A stretch of 64,000 nucleotides of DNA from Corallium rubrum (lineage: Eukaryota; Cnidaria; Anthozoa; Scleralcyonacea; Coralliidae), in assembly GCA_964035015.1 (NCBI GenBank), contig OZ035997.1:65537904-65601903 (forward strand), in the 5' to 3' direction. The position numbers and the translations under genes were made by a program. The notes below the pieces were generated by a model. The model was given only the letters and a program-made list of their open reading frames with translations, was not told where the DNA came from and made no database searches. This document shows, in pieces, positions 4,022 to 49,815 of the stretch (its first letter is position 1; each line of letters starts with the position of its first letter).

Positions 4022-5380
4022 AAAGGGTCCTGGCCGGGCTGTGCGCCCGGGGCGTTCCGGCCTCTAGGAAATTTTTGAGACTCTGAAATTGTATTTCCTC
4101 TGTATGTCGATATTTTTTGGTGACTACAACATTTAATAGACACTGAATAATATATTATATACTATGAGTAATATTTAAGTCACAAGTGGTTTACTGTTCC
4201 AGGATTCAACTACTCTTAGTCTTAGAGTTCCAAAATGTATTATACAGTATACATCTTATGAAAAGTGAATTACAAAGAAAAGATAATACAATTACATGCA
4301 GAGTAAGTAGTTTAGAAAATATATATTGTATACCATTGTGTTTGTAGTTTACGACTAATAGTCTTGCAATGCAACTAGTAACAACTGTATTTCATGTTTA
4401 CGTTATAAGCTGTATTTTGTTAATTAGGGAGGTTATGATTCAGACAACGGACTACGGCTACGGTAGAAAGTTTAACAGTGGTATTAAATGGTGGTGTATT
4501 TATACATTCAAATTTCAAGATACATAATCGCACGGACTTGTTTTGTTCTTAAATTATTGAGGAAGAACACTTGTTCAATCTAAGGTAGTCGCGAGAGTAA
4601 TGTTAAGCTTCTCCAAGGCTTCTGTAGTGACTCAGGTTTCGCGTTGTCTTTACAACGTACAAATTGCTTTTTCTACGTTGTCAACAGAGTCAAGACGGCG
4701 TAAAGATTACTCTTGGGACCGTCATTTGCAAACGTTCTTTGTCTATGACATAAAATTCTATTGTGCAAACACGTTGCCGTAGTCGTAGTCGCTGTGTTTT
4801 CTTAAAGTCCCTATTGTCTTTGTGGGGGCGCCTGAAACGAAAAACAAGGGGGCACACGGGGAAATTTCCGCCTCCTTGGAAACAAAAGACTTGTAAGACT
4901 TGTAAACCTTGCAGACGCGGGGGCGTTACCGTTCACTTTTCCGATCGGAGGAGTGTCAGGAGGTGTGGCCCTGAAAAACATGTCAATCAAAAAGAAAAAA
5001 TCATGTGATCAACGCTCTGGGTTTAAAAATATCACTTCTATCACAGGCGAAATTTCAACACCCGAAGATATACCGAAATAAACAAAATACACTGAGGTTG
5101 TTAGTTATTGGATTCAGAGATATTTTAAAGTCCGTTGGGTTTTGTGTTTATCATTTACCTTCTTTATAAAATATTTATAATTGATAAATTTCATCTGTTC
5201 ATTGTTTTTCGGAAGTTTGAATAAAATTTGAATAACCCCCGTCGGCAAGGTCACGGCGTTGTCTGATATTCTTTGATTGCAATGATTGTAAAAGTATTGG
5301 TTGGCTATTCCTTCCATGACGAGTTTTAATTGCCCTATTTTCCTCTCATGACAATACTTCAACTGTCTGACCTAACGGAT
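4022..5380. other. ETFDH intron 7, no recognised feature
   Basis: AT-rich intronic sequence; I see no gene, LINE motif or clear repeat unit here. Confidence 0.6.
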
Positions 5381-5385
5381 TTTGG

Positions 5386-6149
5386 CAACCTCGTACCCAG
5401 GGCATTTTGCCTCCGCATTGAGAGGTCGGCGAAAGTGGTGAGATAGAGCATAATTTATTCATGAAAATCTGGATTACAATAGATTCACTCTTCGAAATTT
5501 ATCCCCAAAAATAGAAATGATAGCTTTGGTTACAGTCAAGAACAGCATTAGATATATGCTTGTTCATGACATTCACATGTGTACTAGATAATCGTGGGGG
5601 TATCATGATGAATAATGCTAGTCAGTTGCTTTTATGATGAAGGCTTCGCACGTAAGTAAGTTGGCACAAAGACCGCATACATTTTCTTGTCGCAAAACAA
5701 CACCGCTGCCAAACGTTTTGCGCATGTACGACGTCCGAGCTCGTCCTCGGAAAAAGAGCGGGAAAACACTGAAATATTTGGACTGGTCCGAGAGTCCGAC
5801 ACAAAAGTTAAAATTATAAGCATACTACCAAAAAGGTAAGGTAGGTAATTTGTGTATGGCTTCCTTGTCCATATTGTAACATATTCTGAATTTACTCCTT
5901 CGTAATTTTCTTTACCCTTTTTTTTAAACACAAATGAATAGTCGAGTCTTACTTAGTCTTCACTGTCTGGTTGTTGTCGCCACGGCTAATTCCCACTTCT
6001 CTCGCAATGTTTATTCAGCGAATTCACGCATGCGGACACGTTTGGCAGCGGTGTTCCCTAAAATTCTTGGTGTTATGTGACTAGCCGATGCCAGGACCAT
6101 TTTCGCAGACTTCCCCACGTGGAGGCAAAATGCTCTGGGTACGAGGCTG
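5386..6149. mobile_element. MULE-like MITE copy A, interrupted by an inserted TIR element
   Basis: Ends CAACCTCGTACCCAGGGCAT and its mirror at 6149. The internal sequence (ATTTATTCAT, GATAGCTTTGGTTA, AAGAACARCATTAGATATATG, GAATAATGCTAG) is shared with copy B at 35.99-36.51 kb. Relative to B it carries about 357 bp of the AACACCGCTGCCAAACG element (5699-6055). The flanks GGATTTTGG and GGATGTTAA look like a decayed 9-bp target duplication. The left flank and end recur inverted at 17.39-17.50 kb. Confidence 0.8.
5699..6055. mobile_element. TIR element AACACCGCTGCCAAACG, copy 1
   Basis: About 357 bp with 17-bp perfect inverted ends, inside MULE-like MITE copy A. Comparison with copy B, which lacks it, defines the insertion. 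Related copies are at 11972-12329 and 18496-18843. Confidence 0.85.
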
Positions 6150-6382
6150 GGATGTTAAACGAAAGCGAAAGCAAACCGCCGTGTGATTTAGACAACACGG
6201 GTTTCCTAATTTCATGTCTTAATTGTCCTTCAGCCGTTTAATCCAAGGCCAAGAAAAATTGTTCGATTATGAGAAGGCCAAAATTGCAAACCCCGATGTA
6301 AAATTACTCGGTCCCAGACTTCTCCTACTATCCGAGCTCTAGCTCCTCAACCTTCTATTCGCTATCCGCATTTGACTGGAGT

Positions 6383-6998
6383 CATCTTCGTTCCCAGGGT
6401 CTCCTCGGTACACTGGGAAATTGGAGGCCATGGTCCGATGAAAACAGGATGTCCTAGATTCTAGGACATTGAGTCATTGAATACATCACATTGCCCTAGG
6501 TGCGAACATGGACATAATATAACGAAACAAACGAGATACACTCAGCTATTTCAAGAAAAGTTGCCTTGTTATGACGTCCGAAAGGTTTGGTGTTTACTGC
6601 TCTTCCCGCTATACACAAAATAGCACAATTTCCCTTACCAAAATGCTTTTCAAACATAGGTTGTTTACAAACATAATTTGCCGTCGCCGACGAATGAGTC
6701 ACCAAGTCACGCTATGTCTAAAATCGTTCAATTTTGAGAGTTAAATGATGAAACTCATCGCAGTTCCAATTCGCTTTAAGAATCCTACTTTGTTGGCTTT
6801 ATTTGTAGACTTTTTCAGTGTTATCTGAGCGATAATCTTCATTCTATTCACACCGTTGTTTGACAGTTGAAAATATATTTGCCCAATTCCTGTTTTAGAC
6901 AATAGCCTTCGTCCAGCCAATCACACGCTTCAACCGTTTTCATCTGACCAGGGCCTCCGATTTCCCAGTGTACCGAGGAGGCCCTGGGAACGAGGATG
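6383..6998. mobile_element. MULE-like TIR element, 9-bp target duplication GACTGGAGT
   Basis: 616 bp. The ends CATCTTCGTTCCCAGGG and CATCCTCGTTCCCAGGG extend as inverted repeats for about 60 bp (CTCCTCGGTACACTGGGAAA). The exact direct repeat GACTGGAGT flanks it at 6374-6382 and 6999-7007. No transposase seen. Confidence 0.88.
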
Positions 6999-14270: not shown

Positions 14271-14690
14271 AACTGATCTCTATATAAACTGGATAGGACA
14301 TTCCCTATGACCATTTCGTACCAGTCGCCGCCATATTACGCAACGCATTGCGGTCTTCGAAGTTAGAACGTGTTCCCAATCCTACAGTTCACTGGCATAA
14401 GCAATCTTGACGTCAGCACGGTCAGATTATCCAGGGGGAGGAATATTAAGTACTCTGTGCCGGGGGAGTCGGAAAAGCCGTAAAGCAAAAAACACATGCC
14501 GGTTCGTTTAGTTTTCACTGCTTAACAAATACAGTCAAAAGATGGCAAGTACACAACACGAGATATTGTTAAGGCATTAAGATTACTATAAAAGGTACAA
14601 TTTAAGACTTGGAATTGAATTCTTCGTAAATTTTATAGTCTATTTTTCAGTTTATATTATCGTGAAACAAAAAATACTTCAAGTTTTCTT
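14271..14690 (+). mobile_element. MITE S (CACTGATCTC...), copy 1, right end missing
   Basis: Starts ACTGATCTCTATATAAACTG; the body (GACGTCAGCACGGTCAGATT, GATGGCAAGTACACAACACG, ACTATAAAAGGTACAATTTA) is shared with copies at 39.34-43.72 kb and 53409-54054. It keeps the uninterrupted site GGAATTGAATTCTT where the 3.8-kb transposon sits in copy 2. Confidence 0.85.
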
Positions 14691-21736: not shown

Positions 21737-23332
21737 ATGGAGGAAGTGGTCGCTAGAAAATTACGGGAAGTTAGTACAACTCGTGCAGAAGGACCTGACG
21801 ACCTCCCAAATTGGATACTAAAGGAATTTTCGGACATTTTGGCTTCTCCGGTCACAAGCATTTTAAACACATAATTTCGAGATTGTAAAGTGCCCGATAT
21901 CTGGAAGTTAGCGAACATTTCACCTATACCAAAAGTTGCAACAGTCTGTGACTTTAACAAAGACTTGAGACCTATATCCCTCACTTCAACCTTGTCTAAG
22001 ATTGCGGAGAGTTTTATTATTGACCAGGAGTTAAAACCAGCTGTTCTGAAAATAATGGATCCTTCCCAATTTGGATTTTTGCCGGGATCATCAACTACGT
22101 TTGCCCTTATCTCTATGTTACACAAATGGTTGGAAGCCAGTGACGGTGCAGACGCTGATATAAGAACTGTGCTGTTAGACTTCCAGAAAGCGTTTGATTT
22201 AGTGGATCATCATCTACTTATTGCTAAACTGTACAGTTTTGGTGTTAAACCTACTGTAGTGAATTGGGTAATTGATTTTTTGCGAGGCAGAACCCAAAGA
22301 GTAAAGATAAATTCCAGTTGTTTCTCAAACTGGTTAGAAGTTTCGGCTGGGGTTCCTCAGGGAACTCGGCTAGGTCCGTGGCTCTTTCTGGTGATGATAA
22401 ACGATTTGAAAGTCGAAAAGGAAAATTCCTTTTTGTGGAAATTTGCTGACGACAGTACTTTATCAGAAATAGTTCCAAGGAATAATGCAAGCTTACTACA
22501 AGATGATATTGATCACATTTCACAATGGACAGTGGAAAATAACCTTCGATTAAACCCGATTAAATGCAAGGAATTAACTGTATCATTTAAAAAATCACCT
22601 ATTGAATATGAGCAGCTGAATATTGATAATAAGCCTTTGGAAAAAGTATCAACTGCTACACTTCTAGGAATGTCTATTTCGAAAGATTTGAAGTGGAATG
22701 GACATATCGAAAAGATTACATCTACGGCAGCCAAAAGACTATATTTATTGAAGCAGTTAAAACGAGCCAAAGTGTGTAATAAAGACCTTGTCAGATTCTA
22801 TTGCTGTTGCATTAGATCTGTCATGGAATACTCGTGTCAGGTCTTCCATAGCAACCTGCCAACATACTTATCTAATGAAATTGAGAGGATTCAGAAACGA
22901 GCCATGCGTGTGATCTTTCCAGACCTCAGTTATGATGATGCACTTTCGGAGACAAATCTTCCCAAACTTTGTGAAAGATGGGACCAATTGTGTAGTGATT
23001 TATTTAGTAATATTGTTAAGAAAAATAATCATAAACTAGCCTATCTATTACCACCTAGAATTAATGTATCAAAGGATATGAGGAATGCTAGAACTTTTGA
23101 AATTCCGAGGTGCAAGACAGATCGGTTCAAGAAATCATTTATAGTACATTTTGCAAACAATTTTAACTTAGATTTTCAAATTTATAATCCTAAATTTTCA
23201 AAATTGACCGTGTAAATATAACATAATTTTTATACAATTGCTTGTAATAGTTTTTCAGCGTAATTCAGTCTTCGACTGCAAAGCTGACTTCTTTTTTTGG
23301 AAATAAACGATTTATCTATCTATCTATCTATC
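21737..23332 (+). pseudogene. 5'-truncated non-LTR retrotransposon (LINE) with reverse transcriptase
   Basis: Reading from 21737 (in frame with 21890-23215): EGPDDLPNWILKEF, stop TAA at 21872-21874, then VPDIWK...PISLTSTLSKIAE, LLDFQKAFDLVDH (catalytic Asp), GVPQGTRLGPWLF, FADD (catalytic pair) and a C-terminal RIQKRAMRVIF region. This is the reverse transcriptase and thumb of a CR1/L2/jockey-like LINE. The endonuclease half is missing by 5' truncation, and one nonsense codon breaks the remaining frame. The 3' UTR ends in (TATC)n at 23311-23334. The insertion lies within the satellite, which resumes in register, with at most a TATG duplication. Confidence 0.93.
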
Positions 23333-32615: not shown

Positions 32616-33539
32616 CAACCTCGTCCCCAGGGCCATTTGTGGGGGCTGGGCCAAGATGGCGGCCAAAAACAAAATGGCGGGAACAAATGGCCCTGGCACA
32701 GGCTGCAAAAAATGAGTCATATTTTGACTCATTTTTGACTCGGCCCAGGCTTCACGAAGTTTATCGCGCCTAGTCAGGCTCAATTATTTTCTGAATATTT
32801 AGTTCAGCTTGACTGACCCAAACTGAAAACAATCAAAACATCATTTCCAAATACATTGTCGAATTATTAAAATAAATACACTTTTAATAAATATCTGTAA
32901 ACGCTTATTATTTATCATTTGCTTCACCGTTGTACCAAATTCACAAGAAACTGGATTGCCGTTGTCTGGCTGGGCCGCCCTGTTTTCGTACGTTTTCGGT
33001 GGATTCAATTCAGCGTTTTGAAAAACATATAGGCTTCGTTTCGTCGAGAACTCTTGTTTGAAAAAAGCCTGCTTCTTAATAGCCAAACATGTATATTCTG
33101 CCTTGTGGTGTACTTTCCTTTCGCAGCCAAAATACTTTTTGACTTTGTTCACCAAGTCTTTCGTTCGCCCGATTTAGAAAACACACTGAATTGCCGTCCC
33201 ATGGACTTCGTTGTATGGCAGCGGGCACAGAGACGACACGACCCATCATTACATATTCTTCCGACGTTTTCACGGGTGTTTCGCCAGCTTTCCTCACATT
33301 TTCATTCATTTCGAAGTTGTTTTTTAACAGCCGGCAATTCTGAATATAATTTGAGCCCAAAAAACAAATGCCCGCGAGTTAGCCTGCCGCCCGCCTTGTT
33401 TCCGCCAATCAGAATACCTAAAACATTCAAAGTTATCTCGACCAATCAAATGTGGTGATAGCTCAGCCTGTGCCAGGGCCATTTGTTCTTGGCCGCCATC
33501 TTGTCCCAGCCCCCACAAATGGCCCTGGGGACGAGGTTG
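32616..33539. mobile_element. MULE-like TIR element, 9-bp target duplication GGGCACCTG
   Basis: 924 bp. The ends CAACCTCGTCCCCAGGGCCA continue as inverted repeats of about 75 bp (GGGGGCTGGGMCAAGATGGC, GGCCAAGAACAAAT-like). The exact flank GGGCACCTG is at 32607-32615 and 33540-33548. No transposase recognised in the interior. Confidence 0.92.
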
Positions 33540-34507
33540 GGGCACCTGTAACTTCTGGTGTTCCTCAAGGCAGCATCCTAGGGCCCTTGCTTTTCGTCAT
33601 CTTCATAAATGATCTTCCCGATGTCATATCGGACGAAATATCAATAGCTTTATACGCAGATGATACGAAACTTTACGAAAGCATCACTTCCGTAAGTGAC
33701 TGCGAGAACCTGCAACGAGCTTTAACCAACTTGAATGATTGGAGTTGCGAAAACAACATCCGGTTCAACGCGTCCAAATGCAAGGTCTTAACCGTGACAC
33801 GTAAGAAGAATCCCGTGACTTATGACTATTGCTTGGGCACGGAGAAGCTGCAAAATGTTCGGGAGGAGAAAGATCTTGGTGTCTACATGTCGACCAAACT
33901 CTCTTGGGAATCTCACGTCTACAACATCGTCGCGAAAGCTAACAAACTGCTTGGATTGCTTAAGAGAACTTGTCCTCTGTTAACGGACACGGGAATCAGG
34001 CGAACCCTATACCTGTCGCTGATAAAGTCCCGGCTATGTTACGCAAGCCAAGTATGGTCTCCAGTCCACAGCACAGTCCAACAAAAAGTGGAAGAAGTGC
34101 AACGCAGAGCAACTAGATGGATCCTGAAAGTCAAACCACGCGAGATATATACCGTACAAGCAGCGACTGCTAATTTTACCACTCCCGTACTCGGCTAAGT
34201 CAAACCTCTAGTGACATTCTTCAAGTCCCACTCTGTAAAACTAGTACTTTCCAAGCATCTTATTTTACTCGTAATGTTAAGACCTGGAACACTATATGTA
34301 AACTAACGCCTCCTGATCGTTTTTCCAGCCCTAGTTCCTTTAAATGTTATCTTAGGCGGGTTTATTTCTCTCTGGTTACTTTAGTTTTTGATGCAGAAAT
34401 GACTTGTACATGGTCCTTGACCCTTGATTGCCCTTGTTACAGAACATAATGTTCGTTCATTCGTTCGAGGGCTCGCTTTCTCACTCATTAAATCACTCGC
34501 CCTCGTT

Positions 34508-39340: not shown

Positions 39341-39630
39341 CTTACGTAGTGGAACATATGACGCATTGTTGCCTTAGAACTTGTTCCCAATCCCAAGGTT
39401 GACTAGCGTACGAAATCTTGACGTCAGCACGGTCAGATTATCCGGGGGAGGCAATATCAAGTACTCTGTGCCGGGGTGTCGGAAAAACCGTAAAGCAAAC
39501 AACAGATGCCGGTTCATTTAGTTTTCACTGTTTAACGAATACAGTCAAAAGATGGCAAGTACACAACACGAGATATTGTTACGGCATAAAGACTACTATA
39601 AAAGGTACAATTTAAGACTTGGAAGTGAAT
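39341..39630 (+). mobile_element. MITE S copy 2, left part
   Basis: Same body as copies 1 and 3; interrupted after GGAAGTGAAT by the 3.8-kb palindromic transposon. The right part resumes at 43407 (ATTC...CAGTCTGTTTTTCAG) and ends near 43724 with CCATCCAGTTTTATTGAGA. Confidence 0.88.
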
Positions 39631-41397
39631 GGACCTTTAACCTTATAGCAAAAACCGCAATGCATTCTGGTAGTTCGATATCACTTCACTTCGAAGTGAA
39701 ATGGCCGCCGCGAGGCGAGCATTTTACTCCGAAGAAGAATTGGCCAATTTGCACGACTTTTTCTTTTGCGAGGACGAAATTAAATCATGTCTATGGAACA
39801 AGGAGCCCCTTCATTACATTCTGCAGAAAAAGTAAAGAAATCGCCCGTGTCATTGTCGAGAAAATTGAATTCACAGAGGTTGAAGAGTCGAGTGCTGTTC
39901 GAACAAAACATTCTTTAACCAAGGTGTTTCTTCTTGTTACAAGGTAAGTAACCGTATTGATTGCCCTTCAACGAAAGATTTTGCTCTGTGGCTATTCATC
40001 TGTAGTTTGCCTGTCTAAATGGCGTATTAGTTGTAGCTGTGAACGGCTCTTTGTAAATTTGCCATTACTTGAAATTGACACACTCGGTGATGCCTTTTAA
40101 ATCATTTGTTCGATAAACATGGCCACCCGAGACAGTATTCTAGGCCTGTTTTGGCGCGAAAATATACAGGCCGTGAGTGGGAATTCAGGTCTTTTCAAAA
40201 GCTACATCTCCAATGTACTGTCACTTGTACTTTTGACTGTGTTTGGTTTCGCTTACCCTTGGTAGCTGCTTTGGTTCCTGTTTTCGAATAACCAGTAGGT
40301 TATTGAAGTTCTAGAACTAAGTTTAAGTTGTAAAATATATAAAAGATATATGCACTAAAACTTGCATTTTCTTTAAAATCCTTCGGTGGTTTTTTCGTCG
40401 TGTTGTATACTCGTGTTGTATACTTATAAAACAGTGAGTTTACAATAACTTCGTAACATAGATATTACAAAGCTAGCTTTCGAATTCTAAATTCTATTTC
40501 CAACTAGTTATTTTATAAATATAATATATAAACCAGTCCAGGCAAAGGTTAAACTTCACAAATACAACAATACATGTATTTGACATAAATTTGTAGTTTT
40601 ATTCTTAAATTTTTAATAGTTTTAAATACAGTACATACTGTTAATAAAATTAATTGTAAATAAATTTGTAAATACACCTGTAAATATTAAATATACTGTA
40701 TAATTTAAATTATGTAGTACTTACAGTGTAAATAGCAAATAGTGCTGTTAATACATTTTAATAGTAGGAATATAAAGTTAGATAATAAATGGAGGACAGG
40801 CCTTGCACAGGTCTTGAGGAGGTCAAATGCCCATATTCAAAGAGAGAGAACACAATTGAAGAAGCTTGTGCAGATCTCAATTTTGTGCTCTTGTGGTAAA
40901 GTTTATTTGAAAAGGAAACATGCTTACTATTATTATCAGCTGCAGGGATCCATGGCAACAACTCCATTTGCAGTGGTCAGACTTTGTTGTTTATACAAAG
41001 AAAGATATATATTACATTATGTGGAGAGAGTACACTGACAATGAACTGTAATTTACTGTGGGAAAGAACAATGGTACCAGAACTAACAAATAATTTTCTA
41101 TTCTGATTATTTATTACCACATCTGAACACTTGTTAAAACTTTTTATTTAAGTTTTGTTAAATTGGTTTGATTGAACACATTCAACTACAGTATTTTCAC
41201 AACATTATCAATGGCACTATATTGATGTAAATACAGTACATTAAAATATTTACATGTAACAAATGTTTGGAAATGTAATGTTAGAAATTATTACATATAA
41301 ATCATGTTATCTGATTGAATCTCTTGGGTCTATTAAAGTACAGTAACTATTTTAACTGCTTACATTTTCTCCTCTATTAATGGGGGCAGGAACAATG

Positions 41398-41720
41398 TTA
41401 GATAAGATACATACAGTCCATATTTTGTCTAGTTCTTTCACCATAGTTATTGGAATGACCTGATGTAGAATTCTGAAATTCTTTATTCTTGCAATAGCTC
41501 TTTCCACATGAACCCAGACTGGCTATTTTCCTTGTGGAGGTTTCCTCTTCAAGTGTTAGCTGGTCTTTGCCATTGGTCTTTGGAGGGATATTTAATGTTA
41601 CCCCAGCAGGAAGATCACTCTCGATGTCAAAACCATGGTCTGCCATTATCTGATCTCCTGCTTCAAGAAGATTTAGGATCCCACTTAGGGTGCACTTAAG
41701 TTGGAGCCAGGCTCTGTTGT
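41398..41720 (-). pseudogene. DDE_Tnp_4-type transposase C-terminal fragment, frameshifted
   Basis: Minus strand: SGILNLLEAGDQIMADHGFD, then DLPAGVTLNIPP and EEETSTRKIASL, followed in the next frame by VHVERAIARIKNF and HQVIPITMVKEL. The ADxGF Asp and the HVERAIxRIKxF Glu region are the last parts of the DDE_Tnp_4 catalytic core seen in Harbinger and ISL2EU transposases. A 2-base loss between SL and VHVER breaks the frame, and no upstream catalytic part is present in the window, so it is non-functional. Confidence 0.85.
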
Positions 41721-43203
41721 GCTAACCTGCACCATTTTATTTTATTTTTCTTGTATGGTGGAAGTTATGTAAATAAATAAAATAAATCTTTTGTAATTTT
41801 TTTATCACTAGTTCTACCTGCATAGAGACAAAACTTGGGTATCCATTTGGGGAAATACCAATATCAAACCAATTTAACAAAACTTAAATAAAAAGTTTTA
41901 ACAAGTGTTCAGATGTGGTAATAAATAATCAAAATAGAAATTTGTTAGTTCTGGTACCATTGTTCTTTCCCACAGTTCATTGTCAAAGTGTACTCTCTCC
42001 ACATAATATATATCTTTCTTTGTATAAGCAACAAAGTCTGACCACTGCAAATGGAGTGTTGCCATGGATCCCTGCAGCTGATAATAGTAAGCATGTTTCC
42101 TTTTTAAATAAACTTTACCACAAGAGATGCCGAGAAAAAAATTGAGATCTGCGCAACCTCCTTCAATTGTGTTCTCTCTCTTTGAATATGGGCATTTGAC
42201 CTCCTCAAGACCTGTCCTCCCCAAGACCTGTGCAAGGCCTGTCCTCCATTTATTATCTAACTTTATATTCCTACTATTAAAATTTATTAACAGCACTATT
42301 TGCTATTTAAGTACTACATAATTTAAATTATACAGTATATTTAATAATTTACAGGTGTATTTACAAATTTATTTACAATTAATTTTATTAACAGTATATA
42401 TGTACTGTATTTAAAACTATTAAAAATTTAAGAATAAGACTACAAATTTATGTCAAATACATGTATTGTTGTACTTGTGAAGTTTAACCTTTGCCTGGAC
42501 TGGTTTATATATTATATTTATAAAAGAACTAGTTGGAAATAGAATTTAGAATTCGAAAGCTAGCTAGTAATATCTATGTTACGAAGTTATTGTACATGTA
42601 AACTCGCTGTTTTAACAACTATTTGAAGTATACAACACAGCGAAAAAACCACCGAAGGATTTTAAAGAAAATGCAAGTTTTAGTGCATATATCTTTTATA
42701 TTTACAACTTAAACTTAGTTCTAGAACTTCAATAACCTACTGGTTATTCGAAGACAGGAACCAAAGCAGCTACCAAGGGTATGCGAAACCAAACACAGTC
42801 AAAAGTACAAGTGACAGTACATTGGAGATGTAGCTTTTGAAAAGACTTGAATTCCGACTCACGGCCTTTATATTTTCGCGCCAAAACAGGCCTAGAATAC
42901 TGTCTCGGGTGGCCATGTTTATCGAACAAATGATTTAAAAGGCATCACCGAGTGTGTCAATTTCAAGTAATGGCAAATTTACAAAGAGCCGTTCACAGCT
43001 ACAACTAATACGCCATTTAGCCAGGCAAACTACAGATGAATAGCCACAGAGCAAAATCTTTCGTTGAAGGGCAATCAATACGGTTACTTACCTTGTAACA
43101 AGAAGAAACACCTTGGTTAAAGAATGTTTTGTTCGAACAGCACTTGACTCTTCAACCTCTGTGAATTCAATTTTCTCGACAATGACAGGGGCGATTTCTT
43201 CAC

Positions 43204-43334
43204 CTTTTCTGCAGAATGTAATGAAGGGGCTCCTTGTTCCGTAGACATGATTTAATTTCGTCCTCGCAAAAGAAAAAGTCGTGCAAATTGGCCAATTCTT
43301 CTTCGGAGTAAAATGCTCGCCTCGCGGCAGCCAT
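43204..43334 (-). pseudogene. First-exon-like frame in the right arm (copy in left arm at 39700-39829)
   Basis: MAAARRAFYSEEELANLHDF and LHYILQK end at AG|GTGAAG, a plausible splice donor. In the left arm the same place reads AAAGTAAAG, which runs into a stop. Unknown function; position suggests the 5' exon of a transposon protein. Confidence 0.45.
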
Positions 43335-43866
43335 TTCACTTCGAAGTGAAGTGATATCGAACTACCAGAATGCATTGCGGTTTTTGCTATAAGGTTAAAG
43401 GTCCATTCCTAGCAGATTTTCCAGTCTGTTTTTCAGTTTATATTTTCGTGAAGTTTCCGTCGGCACTGAAGAAAAACAACGAAATTTTAAAGGTTTTACA
43501 GCTTAGTAATAGAAACAAATACAAGAAATTAGCGTCTTAAACCTTATTGAGTACTTCTTGTGTCATTACATTCGTTTAAATTTTTTTTAAATAACTTTTG
43601 TAATAACGAAAGCTTATGAATTTTGGTGGCGGCCATCTTGGGTAGTGGTCACGTCATCTGATACAGCTGGCACGCAAAATCCGGCCTCATGCCCCATCCA
43701 GTTTTATTGAGATCAATGAATGTGGCTTGAAGCACTGATTTCGTTATATAGAGATCGATCAGTGACCTGAAGGCTCTGCCGTAATTGTGACTGGTTTCCA
43801 TTGCTCGCGCATGCATGTCAATTGCTTAGTTACAATATATCGTCAGTTACAATATACATACAGTCA

Positions 43867-44915
<1,049 letters not shown>

Positions 44916-45277
44916 ACAAAAACCGGTTAAACGGGTCTTAAACAGGTTACTTCGTCCTAGATCTTGGACGACTATTAAGCCAAACACGAATACGACAGAG
45001 CCTCCTTTTCTTCCTCTCTCTTCAACGAAGAGATAAGGAAAAGAATGTTCTGCTTGCAGGGTATATCAAAAGATAAAAAAGGTATACCTATAAAGGCAGG
45101 TATGCAACGAAGTACTTGAATTTGCTCTATTTACATGCAGTTACAGCATAAATGAGAGCAAAATTTGCTCGCCTTCAAAGGGGGTGGAGTGAATTGGCGT
45201 ACCAAAATCCGACTATTTAATCCGAATCCACAGTTATCACTTTTGTTGAACTTTCCGAACTTGCATGATTTTCTACG

Positions 45278-48007: not shown

Positions 48008-49815
48008 TTATTATATGGCAAAAGCAAAGACAGAAATTTAAATTGCTTCTTAAATTATATTTAATAAAAACAGAACTTGTTTACAAAAATTCAACATTTT
48101 CAATAAAGCCGGTAAATGGTTAATTAATTTAAGAACAGCGAAGGAAGCCAGCTAAAAAATTGTTCTCTGAAATGTTATTGGCTACCAAAAAAAAAGAACA
48201 AAATGTTCAAAAATGCTTTTAATTTATTTGTCTTCGCTGTCGGATTCAATAAACAGCCGGCGCCGCTTGCGGATGCATTCAGTTTTCGAAGGCGTTTGAG
48301 TAACTGGGCCGCTCATAACCTGGATATTGAAAGAGCAGTTTTCAAACGTAGCCCCATGGAAAATACCAGCTTCTTCTACATTTTTTGTGATGCTTTGGTT
48401 TGGTTTGTGTTGGATATCTACGACCGAACTCATGGTGGAACTTGAGCTGACAGTTGATGGCTCGGTGTTTTCCGTGCGACTTAGTGCAAATGACATCTTT
48501 CGCTGGTGTTGGGTTGACGCTGATTTGTACGCATCGAGACTTTTCAGGTTGTGATGACCACTTAACTGAGCAACAAAGTTGACAGGTACATCTGAATCTA
48601 GAAGCCTTGAGATACAGGTTTTGCGAACGGAATGATTGGTAACTCGTCCAGGCAGACCAGCGTTTTGAGCTGCTTTCGAGAGCAGCTTGCCGATTTCATT
48701 CTTTCCCAATGGGGATCTCTTGTACCAAATGTGATCGTTTGGATTTCGCTGGTGTTTGATGGCCAAGTAGAAAGGAGATTCAGGCTGATTCATTAGCAAA
48801 GGACGGTGGCTTTTGAACATTTTATAATACATCACCGGGCAGCGTTCATTGCCAGTTGCTTGGGCAGTGGGATAAAACGCACGACGTCCAGAAGACTTGT
48901 CTTGGCCATGGCGAGTTTTGGATCCTCTTTCTGTTTTCCAAACAAGGATTTCGTTGCCAGTTTCAGGGTCGTTTTCCAACGAAACGTCACCCCACAGAAG
49001 ACGTCGAGACTCATCTCTGGCTCTGAACCCGAAATGCAAAGCCAACAACCACCAAACAGTGCGCTGTAAAGCAACGGGATTTTGAGAACCAAACTCTCCT
49101 TCGGCAAAAAGCTTGTCTTCCTCGACCTCGCTCAATACTCGAGTGGCTTTCGGACGGTTCCCTTTTCCGTGGTCGACGACCAGCTTCTTTTTCTTCGACT
49201 TTAGGACTTCTCGGGACAATTTAAATTCATCCCCCTTCAGCACGTTTGCCGTAGATCCCTTGCTGTTGAGATACCGTTGGATACTTCGTTGAAAAGAAGT
49301 CAAAGTTGAGGGTTCGTAGACTTCGCCATTTTTTTTCGTTACATCTTTGAAGAATGAGCAAAGGAGAAGGTTCAACTGTTCAAAAGGTATATCTTCAACT
49401 TTTCTCATCTCGTTTTTTTGTTCACAAAAGTTATACCAAGTTTGTAAATCGTACTTTGTCTTCTGTTTTGTACTTTTTGGCTGTTGGTCGGCGATAAAAT
49501 TGCTGAATTCATTCATGTTTGTGTTGACGTCGCGGATTTCTTCAGTGTTTGTTTCGTTTAAACTTCCCAAAACATCTTCTTCTGGATAATAAAAAGCATT
49601 TGGGTCCTCCTCACTCTCAGACATTTCAAACTTAAAGCCGTTTCGCAAGACAGAATTTTTTTAAAAAGATATAAAAAAACTTGTCAAAGATTTAAAATCC
49701 AAAATTTCCCGCCAAACCTGAGCGGTCCGTACTGTTGGTTTCCGACCGCTAAGGAACCAATCAAAATGCTCTATTTTGGTAGATGGACCGCTCAGAAACA
49801 CTTGCCATATAATAA
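48008..49815 (-). mobile_element. Crypton-like element with 14-bp inverted ends
   Basis: 1,808 bp bounded by TTATTATATGGCAA and its exact reverse complement (49802-49815), enclosing one intact tyrosine recombinase. It sits antisense in TMEM184C intron 1. TATGG-type ends are, as I recall, described for Cryptons, but Cryptons are usually said to lack TIRs, so the inverted ends are notable. Near the right end TGAGCGGTCC is itself inverted (49717-49796). A 19-bp direct repeat starts right after the element (49816-49834) and recurs at 50313-50331. Confidence 0.75.
48224..49648 (-). CDS. Tyrosine recombinase (Crypton / DUF3504-like)
   Basis: 474 codons, no stop or frameshift. N-terminal acidic region (1-60), SAM-like/core-binding part (about 60-155: TWYNFCEQKN, SIQRYLNSKG), basic KSKKKK at 150-155, then the catalytic domain 170-385: GFRARDESRRLLWGDV supplies box I Arg (209 or 211), NHSVRKTC gives H339-x-x-R342, SGHHNLKSLDAY gives H365 and the nucleophile Y374 at the normal nine-residue spacing. 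Such enzymes cut and rejoin DNA through a phosphotyrosine. The C-terminus has a Ser-rich linker and KRRR (461-464), a likely nuclear signal. The fold matches Crypton recombinases and the related domain of vertebrate ZMYM2/QRICH1/KIAA1958 proteins. I chose ATG 49648; Met9 is an alternative. Confidence 0.9.
   Translation of the reverse strand: MRNGFKFEMSESEEDPNAFYYPEEDVLGSLNETNTEEIRDVNTNMNEFSNFIADQQPKSTKQKTKYDLQTWYNFCEQKNEMRKVEDIPFEQLNLLLCSFFKDVTKKNGEVYEPSTLTSFQRSIQRYLNSKGSTANVLKGDEFKLSREVLKSKKKKLVVDHGKGNRPKATRVLSEVEEDKLFAEGEFGSQNPVALQRTVWWLLALHFGFRARDESRRLLWGDVSLENDPETGNEILVWKTERGSKTRHGQDKSSGRRAFYPTAQATGNERCPVMYYKMFKSHRPLLMNQPESPFYLAIKHQRNPNDHIWYKRSPLGKNEIGKLLSKAAQNAGLPGRVTNHSVRKTCISRLLDSDVPVNFVAQLSGHHNLKSLDAYKSASTQHQRKMSFALSRTENTEPSTVSSSSTMSSVVDIQHKPNQSITKNVEEAGIFHGATFENCSFNIQVMSGPVTQTPSKTECIRKRRRLFIESDSEDK

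Follow-up and report, generated by a model that had tools for sequence, protein, structure and literature searches.

A palindromic, non-autonomous ISL2EU-type transposon family in Corallium rubrum, probably formed by duplication of the YqaJ-side end of a two-gene parent

The analysed window, 64,000 nucleotides of contig OZ035997.1 from Corallium rubrum (GenBank assembly GCA_964035015.1), contains an insertion bounded by two inverted arms of 1,546 bp each (39627-41172 and 41863-43408) that are 93.1% identical by BLAST, counting gaps. The outermost 4 bp on each side (GAAT and ATTC) are target bases, so that the element proper, GGACC...GGTCC, spans positions 39631-43404 (3,774 bp) with a 690-bp centre between two 1,542-bp arms (Table 1). 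Global alignment of the two arms, a check suggested in the first-pass annotation of this stretch, shows 46 substitutions and 14 indels in 1,507 aligned columns, with the outer 703 bp free of indels. Given its length and identity, the inverted repeat is evidently no chance match, and the description in that annotation of a palindromic element with highly similar arms of equal span holds. The same applies to its statement that transposase sequence is confined to the centre: the only transposase fragment of the element, identified with the Pfam profile, is a broken DDE_Tnp_4 piece on the minus strand.

A search with this fragment against solved structures gives no match at E-values up to 1, and the search against NCBIfam yields only two IS5 families, far below the cut-off. 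Pfam matches below the cut-off (DUF7059, Pox_I6_C, Thiol_cytolys_C, SWIM and OTU) are kept out of the evidence throughout. The exact tip pattern has no matches in viral contigs (32 bases) or genome contigs (18 bases); for relatives of the transposase fragment, 2 stretches in viral contigs and 161 in genome contigs fit a pattern, none of which is confirmed. From about 450 bp to the right of the element, a tandem array with a 14-bp unit occupies positions 43850-44930. Elsewhere in the window are an open frame of 477 residues on the minus strand (48230-49660) with Pfam matches to DUF3504, Phage_integrase and QRICH1, which we take to be a Crypton-like tyrosine-recombinase transposon, and two fragments of retrotransposons with the reverse transcriptase domain RVT_1 on the plus strand (21875-23212 and 33422-34195).

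Table 1. Parts of the palindromic element in the window (positions are those of the window)
Part	Position	Strand	Evidence
Left AT of the target duplication (target GAATTC)	39629..39630	.	Empty sites at 14617 and 53754
Left arm, outer part: long terminal repeat, arm positions 1-1178, tip GGACCTTTAACC	39631..40808	+	L019 has the repeat at both ends
Start codon common to both parental genes	40789	within left arm outer part (+)	ATG checked
Left arm, inner part: 3' end of the YqaJ gene, a remnant with broken frame	40809..41172	+	tblastn with the L019 YqaJ protein, approximately residues 443-545
Native junction, YqaJ end / 3' flank of transposase; the genes face each other	41172..41173	.	Read through by L019 and L041, identical junction, 93-94%
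Centre: end of the transposase gene, frame broken, then its 3' flank	41173..41862	-	DDE_Tnp_4 profile positions 34-154; residues 328-463 of the L019 frame
Insertion of ~100 bp inside the transposase remnant	41685..41784	.	Centre positions 79-178 skipped in L019 and L041
Derived junction, middle of transposase gene / 3' end of YqaJ	41862..41863	.	Common to 22 palindromic loci; absent from L019, L041 and L042
Right arm, inner part: second, inverted 3' end of YqaJ	41863..42230	-	Residues 436-545 of 545, 90% identical; boundary with the repeat approximate (short duplication at 42213-42247)
Right arm, outer part: second copy of the long terminal repeat, tip GGACCTTTAACC	42231..43404	-	Arm comparison, L019
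Right AT of the target duplication	43405..43406	.	

The host site is a MITE. Two other copies of this MITE in the window retain the uninterrupted GAATTC, as the first-pass annotation had noticed, and the third copy reads GAAT-element-ATTC. With these empty sites the insertion reads as an AT duplication, which is how ISL2EU insertions are read in the cited account (PMC4482050). The duplication had been called proven, however, and this goes too far: an element that ends in T...A and inserts without duplication fits A|AT|T equally, and with almost every target reading A|AT|T, sequence alone gives no means of separating the two cases.

With the first 274 bp of the element as the query, a search of the home assembly (474 Mb, 312 contigs) identifies at least 42 matches, many of them facing pairs a few kb apart; the count is a lower bound because 40 of the 296 candidates were scored. 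The derived junction is present in 21 of the 24 retrieved stretches, that is, in 22 palindromic loci with the window copy included (98-100% identity), and the native junction is likewise found in 22 loci. The remaining three stretches hold a parent-like element (L019), a mini-palindrome (L023) and a single end (L032). Both tips are present in 17 of the 22 loci, and their flanking letters are AT/AT in 16 cases and AT/AA in one (L011); in the other five, which are outside this count, a tip is missing or the stretch ends first. The 16 AT/AT palindromes are preceded by A in 15 cases and followed by T in all 16. Four pairs of palindromes are 0.11-0.17% apart over the arm positions they have in common, and the ~295-bp flanks of one member have no match in the stretch of the other. 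Movement of the palindrome itself does not follow from the AT repeat at the window site alone, since an ordinary element that was rearranged in place would still have that repeat; movement is shown by the presence of the derived junction at 21 further loci, together with the unrelated flanks in the four closest pairs. Judging from these comparisons, the palindrome had a single origin and moved as a unit thereafter. The inverted arms and the derived junction agree with the first-pass view of a fold-back derivative that had still moved, and the further copies it proposed to look for are the 21 additional loci.

Rearranged forms are also found in the assembly. The mini-palindrome of L023 (2413-2795, 383 bp) consists of arm positions 1-93 and inverted positions 1-292 between AT/AT, and is a MITE-sized derivative with the same tips. 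L020 and L029 are palindromes with an extra inverted copy of arm positions 862-1542 and a second derived junction, and an additional centre, in C18 near 11.957 Mb, is flanked by both arm types.

When the centre is used as the query (40 of the 58 candidates scored), the search identifies, besides the palindromes, L019 and L041 at ~95%, both without the ~100-bp insertion, and a further set of loci at 76-82%. In L019, one frame encodes THAP, HTH_Tnp_4 and DDE_Tnp_4 domains, and a second frame of 545 residues, in the facing orientation, has a YqaJ domain (E-value 4.7e-11); the THAP, HTH_Tnp_4 and DDE_Tnp_4 domains are found in L042 as well. The window copy retains part of the DDE domain only, and residues 436-545 of the YqaJ protein twice. 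The terminal repeats start with GG (GGACCTTTAACC at both tips), and the palindromes have AT at A|AT|T, where the reading with zero duplication remains compatible with the sequence. Since a THAP-HTH-DDE transposase, a facing YqaJ gene, AT at A|AT|T and GG tips are given as ISL2EU features in the cited part of PMC4482050, the window element is best classified, by the domains of its relatives, its target site and its tips, as one copy of a non-autonomous ISL2EU derivative. The repeats lie outside the 6-259 bp reported for ISL2EU: they are ~1.07 kb (left, without a stretch of ~117 bp) and 1.18 kb (right) in L019, 98.7-99.8% alike, and 487 bp in L042. We take 6-259 bp to be a descriptive range and no defining feature of the group. 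No intact autonomous partner is found among the retrieved relatives; the transposase frame of L019 is interrupted near its start.

The order of transposase gene and facing YqaJ end is common to L019, L041 and L043, and to L042, with an insertion between them; the latter (~4590-6841, between the transposase and the YqaJ remnant) contains minus-strand frames with one weak, sub-cut-off OTU match. The YqaJ frame of L019 starts with MEDRPCTSKDADRVTQQV within the right repeat; the identical start, identified by eye, opens the transposase side within the left repeat, and in L041 and L043, too, the start on the transposase side is matched by the YqaJ N-terminus. Each window arm corresponds to an L019-type repeat (arm positions 1-1178) plus the last ~364 bp of the YqaJ gene. 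That the parent repeats are natively long rests mainly on L019, the sole locus with both ~1.1-kb repeats and a full YqaJ frame; the 487-bp repeats of L042 count against long parent repeats, although the YqaJ side of L042 is also deleted.

Since the left arm and the centre are joined as in L019 and L041, which have the native order, the duplicated end is the YqaJ-side end. At the derived junction, the YqaJ end adjoins residue 328 of the transposase (463 residues in the L019 frame); inspection by eye shows a single additional base at the join and no clear overlap. A search for this junction in L019, L041 and L042 does not detect it. With the left junction native and the right one confined to the palindromes, a copy of the YqaJ-side end appears to have replaced the transposase-side end and ~70% of the transposase. 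Identity to L019 over the inner 364 bp is 94.9% for the right arm (355 columns) and 87.0% for the left arm (378 columns); the right, derived arm is thus nearer to L019 although the left junction is the native one, which argues that the changes in the left arm are later. The left-arm indels may have been gained after the duplication or moved by exchange.

Exchange between arms is approached by comparing arms of the same element with arms of different elements; if arms evolve apart, the former should be no closer than the latter. The comparison excludes the non-palindromic L019 and, from each near-identical pair, one member, so that 18 of 23 elements are kept, 17 or 18 of them usable per bin. 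In the three outer bins the same-element distances are 1.72, 1.05 and 1.39%, against 2.42, 1.47 and 2.33% between elements, and in each bin none of 20,000 permutations is as low. The excess similarity is weaker in the next two bins inward (p 0.0012 and 0.0069) and disappears in the innermost 292 bp (2.25 vs 2.27, p 0.32). With ten lineages, the p values from tip to centre are 0.0008, 0.00035, 0/20,000, 0.022, 0.021 and 0.21. Minor alleles that occur in both arms of an element account, in the same direction, for 26/99, 10/55, 31/91, 16/125, 10/100 and 2/116 occurrences; inclusion of L019 inflates sharing between arms, and the gradient persists, with smaller numbers, without L019 and the close pairs. 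These patterns suggest arm-to-arm conversion within elements and fit exchange that begins at the tips, as expected of gap repair that follows excision; an alternative is that the inner indels block exchange. The exchange is partial: with L019 and the close pairs included, the own partner is the nearest R arm in 7 of 21 elements over the outer 750 bp and in 4 of 21 at positions 1000-1542.

Taken together, these observations are best compatible, with a probability of about 0.85 in our estimate, with a non-autonomous palindromic ISL2EU family derived from a two-gene parent, in which the YqaJ-side end was duplicated and the product then became mobile as a unit. The parent would have had terminal repeats of ~1.1-1.2 kb, within which lay the starts of two facing genes, one for a THAP-HTH-DDE transposase and one for a YqaJ exonuclease. 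As the structure suggests, most of the YqaJ gene would have been deleted, which joined its 3' end to its own repeat. A break in the transposase-side half could then have been repaired with the other end as the template, usable because the repeats are alike; the repair would have copied the repeat, overrun it by ~364 bp through the YqaJ remnant and joined the copy to the middle of the transposase gene. This single product, as the common junction shows, subsequently moved to many loci as a unit, presumably with transposase supplied by other ISL2EU copies, and the arms of its copies show exchange of sequence, most at the tips and hardly at the centre, probably by gap repair after excision.

The first-pass annotation had considered the arms to be fold-back copies of the 5' end of the transposase gene, so that the element kept two 5' ends. 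The repeat in both arms does hold a start codon that the transposase gene also uses, but the outer ~1.18 kb corresponds to a repeat of which L019 already has a long version, with both genes starting inside it, and the inner 364 bp is, in either arm, the 3' end of YqaJ, joined on the left to the centre in the native YqaJ-side order of L019 and L041. Duplication of the transposase-side 5' end is therefore highly improbable, and the annotation had the ends the wrong way round. Recombination of two different head-to-head copies, with a separate donor for each arm, would account for the 14 indels between the window arms and for the two classes of inner arm, which are many indels apart and match the left inner arm of the window at ~92-98% (left type) and 83-90% (right type). 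The two arms nevertheless have one YqaJ deletion junction in common, and the innermost substitution distance between left and right arms, ~2.2%, barely exceeds the 1.8% between left arms (L019 included); we consider separate donors very unlikely.

The letters A|AT|T can also be cut as in Spy, which, as described in the cited part of PMC4482050, has one ORF, prefers AAATTT and makes no target duplication. The YqaJ gene and the THAP domain are ISL2EU features in that source, and a Spy-like element with T...A ends is an exceedingly unlikely reading; Spy as such is rejected, given the presence of the YqaJ gene and sites that are A|AT|T rather than AAATTT in most copies. Palindromes are, moreover, a recognised type of assembly or long-read fold-back artefact. 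In this case the arms terminate in transposon tips, a single MITE is split between the two flanks, substitutions as well as indels separate the arms and 21 other loci have the identical structure, which leaves an artefact with a negligible probability.

The palindromic ISL2EU family, as reconstructed here, is a derivative that has one end twice and has lost the other, and has nevertheless reached at least 22 loci in near-palindromic form. It points to a parent with repeats that contain the starts of both facing genes, and its young copies show arm-to-arm exchange as a gradient from the tips, so that models of gap repair would become directly testable, as would hairpin-triggered silencing in an animal. 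ISL2EU, a group of PHIS DNA transposons recorded from animals only in the cited part of PMC4482050, is resembled in the AT target within A|AT|T, the GG tips, the DDE-HTH-THAP transposase and the second gene, YqaJ. The differences from the description in that source are the repeats, reported as 6-259 bp but reaching ~1.1-1.2 kb in L019 and 1,542 bp in the palindromes, and the retention in the palindromes of mere remnants of both genes. On this assignment, ISL2EU would join the transposon groups with very long terminal repeats. No fold-back family of ISL2EU is present among the matches listed in the open-licence ISL2EU/Harbinger literature, which is no proof of absence.

Long repeats that recruit internal sequence are known from Galileo of Drosophila, where they reach ~1.26 kb and have been lengthened with internal, also coding, sequence (PMC3573991, PMC4168063); the cause proposed in the cited part of PMC3573991 is repair of one end from the other that overruns the repeat. 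The likeness to the coral palindromes extends to the long repeats, the recruited sequence and this end-from-end repair, whereas Galileo, in the same sources, has a P-superfamily transposase and duplications of 7-8 bp. Membership of the palindromes in Galileo or the P superfamily is rejected: the transposase is DDE_Tnp_4, and no P-type.

Structurally, the nearest counterpart is Mu killer, a rearranged MuDR of maize that, in the cited part of PMC3440606, has both ends from the mudrA side of a transposon with convergently transcribed genes, forms an inverted duplication with arms of ~1.3 kb and silences MuDR. The window palindrome likewise has both ends from a single gene side of a facing-gene transposon, in inverted duplication. 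A rather unlikely extension of this analogy is that the palindromes are animal counterparts of Mu killer also in function, such that the derivative would both parasitise and silence its parent: a transcript started at either tip would run through one arm, the short centre and the opposite arm into a hairpin RNA of ~1.5 kb, which would match the YqaJ end and the region where both ISL2EU genes start. Mu killer differs, in the account of PMC3440606, in its MuDR transposase, its single locus, the duplication of the transposase (mudrA) side and the silencing of its parent; in the coral palindromes it is the YqaJ side that is duplicated, at no fewer than 22 loci.
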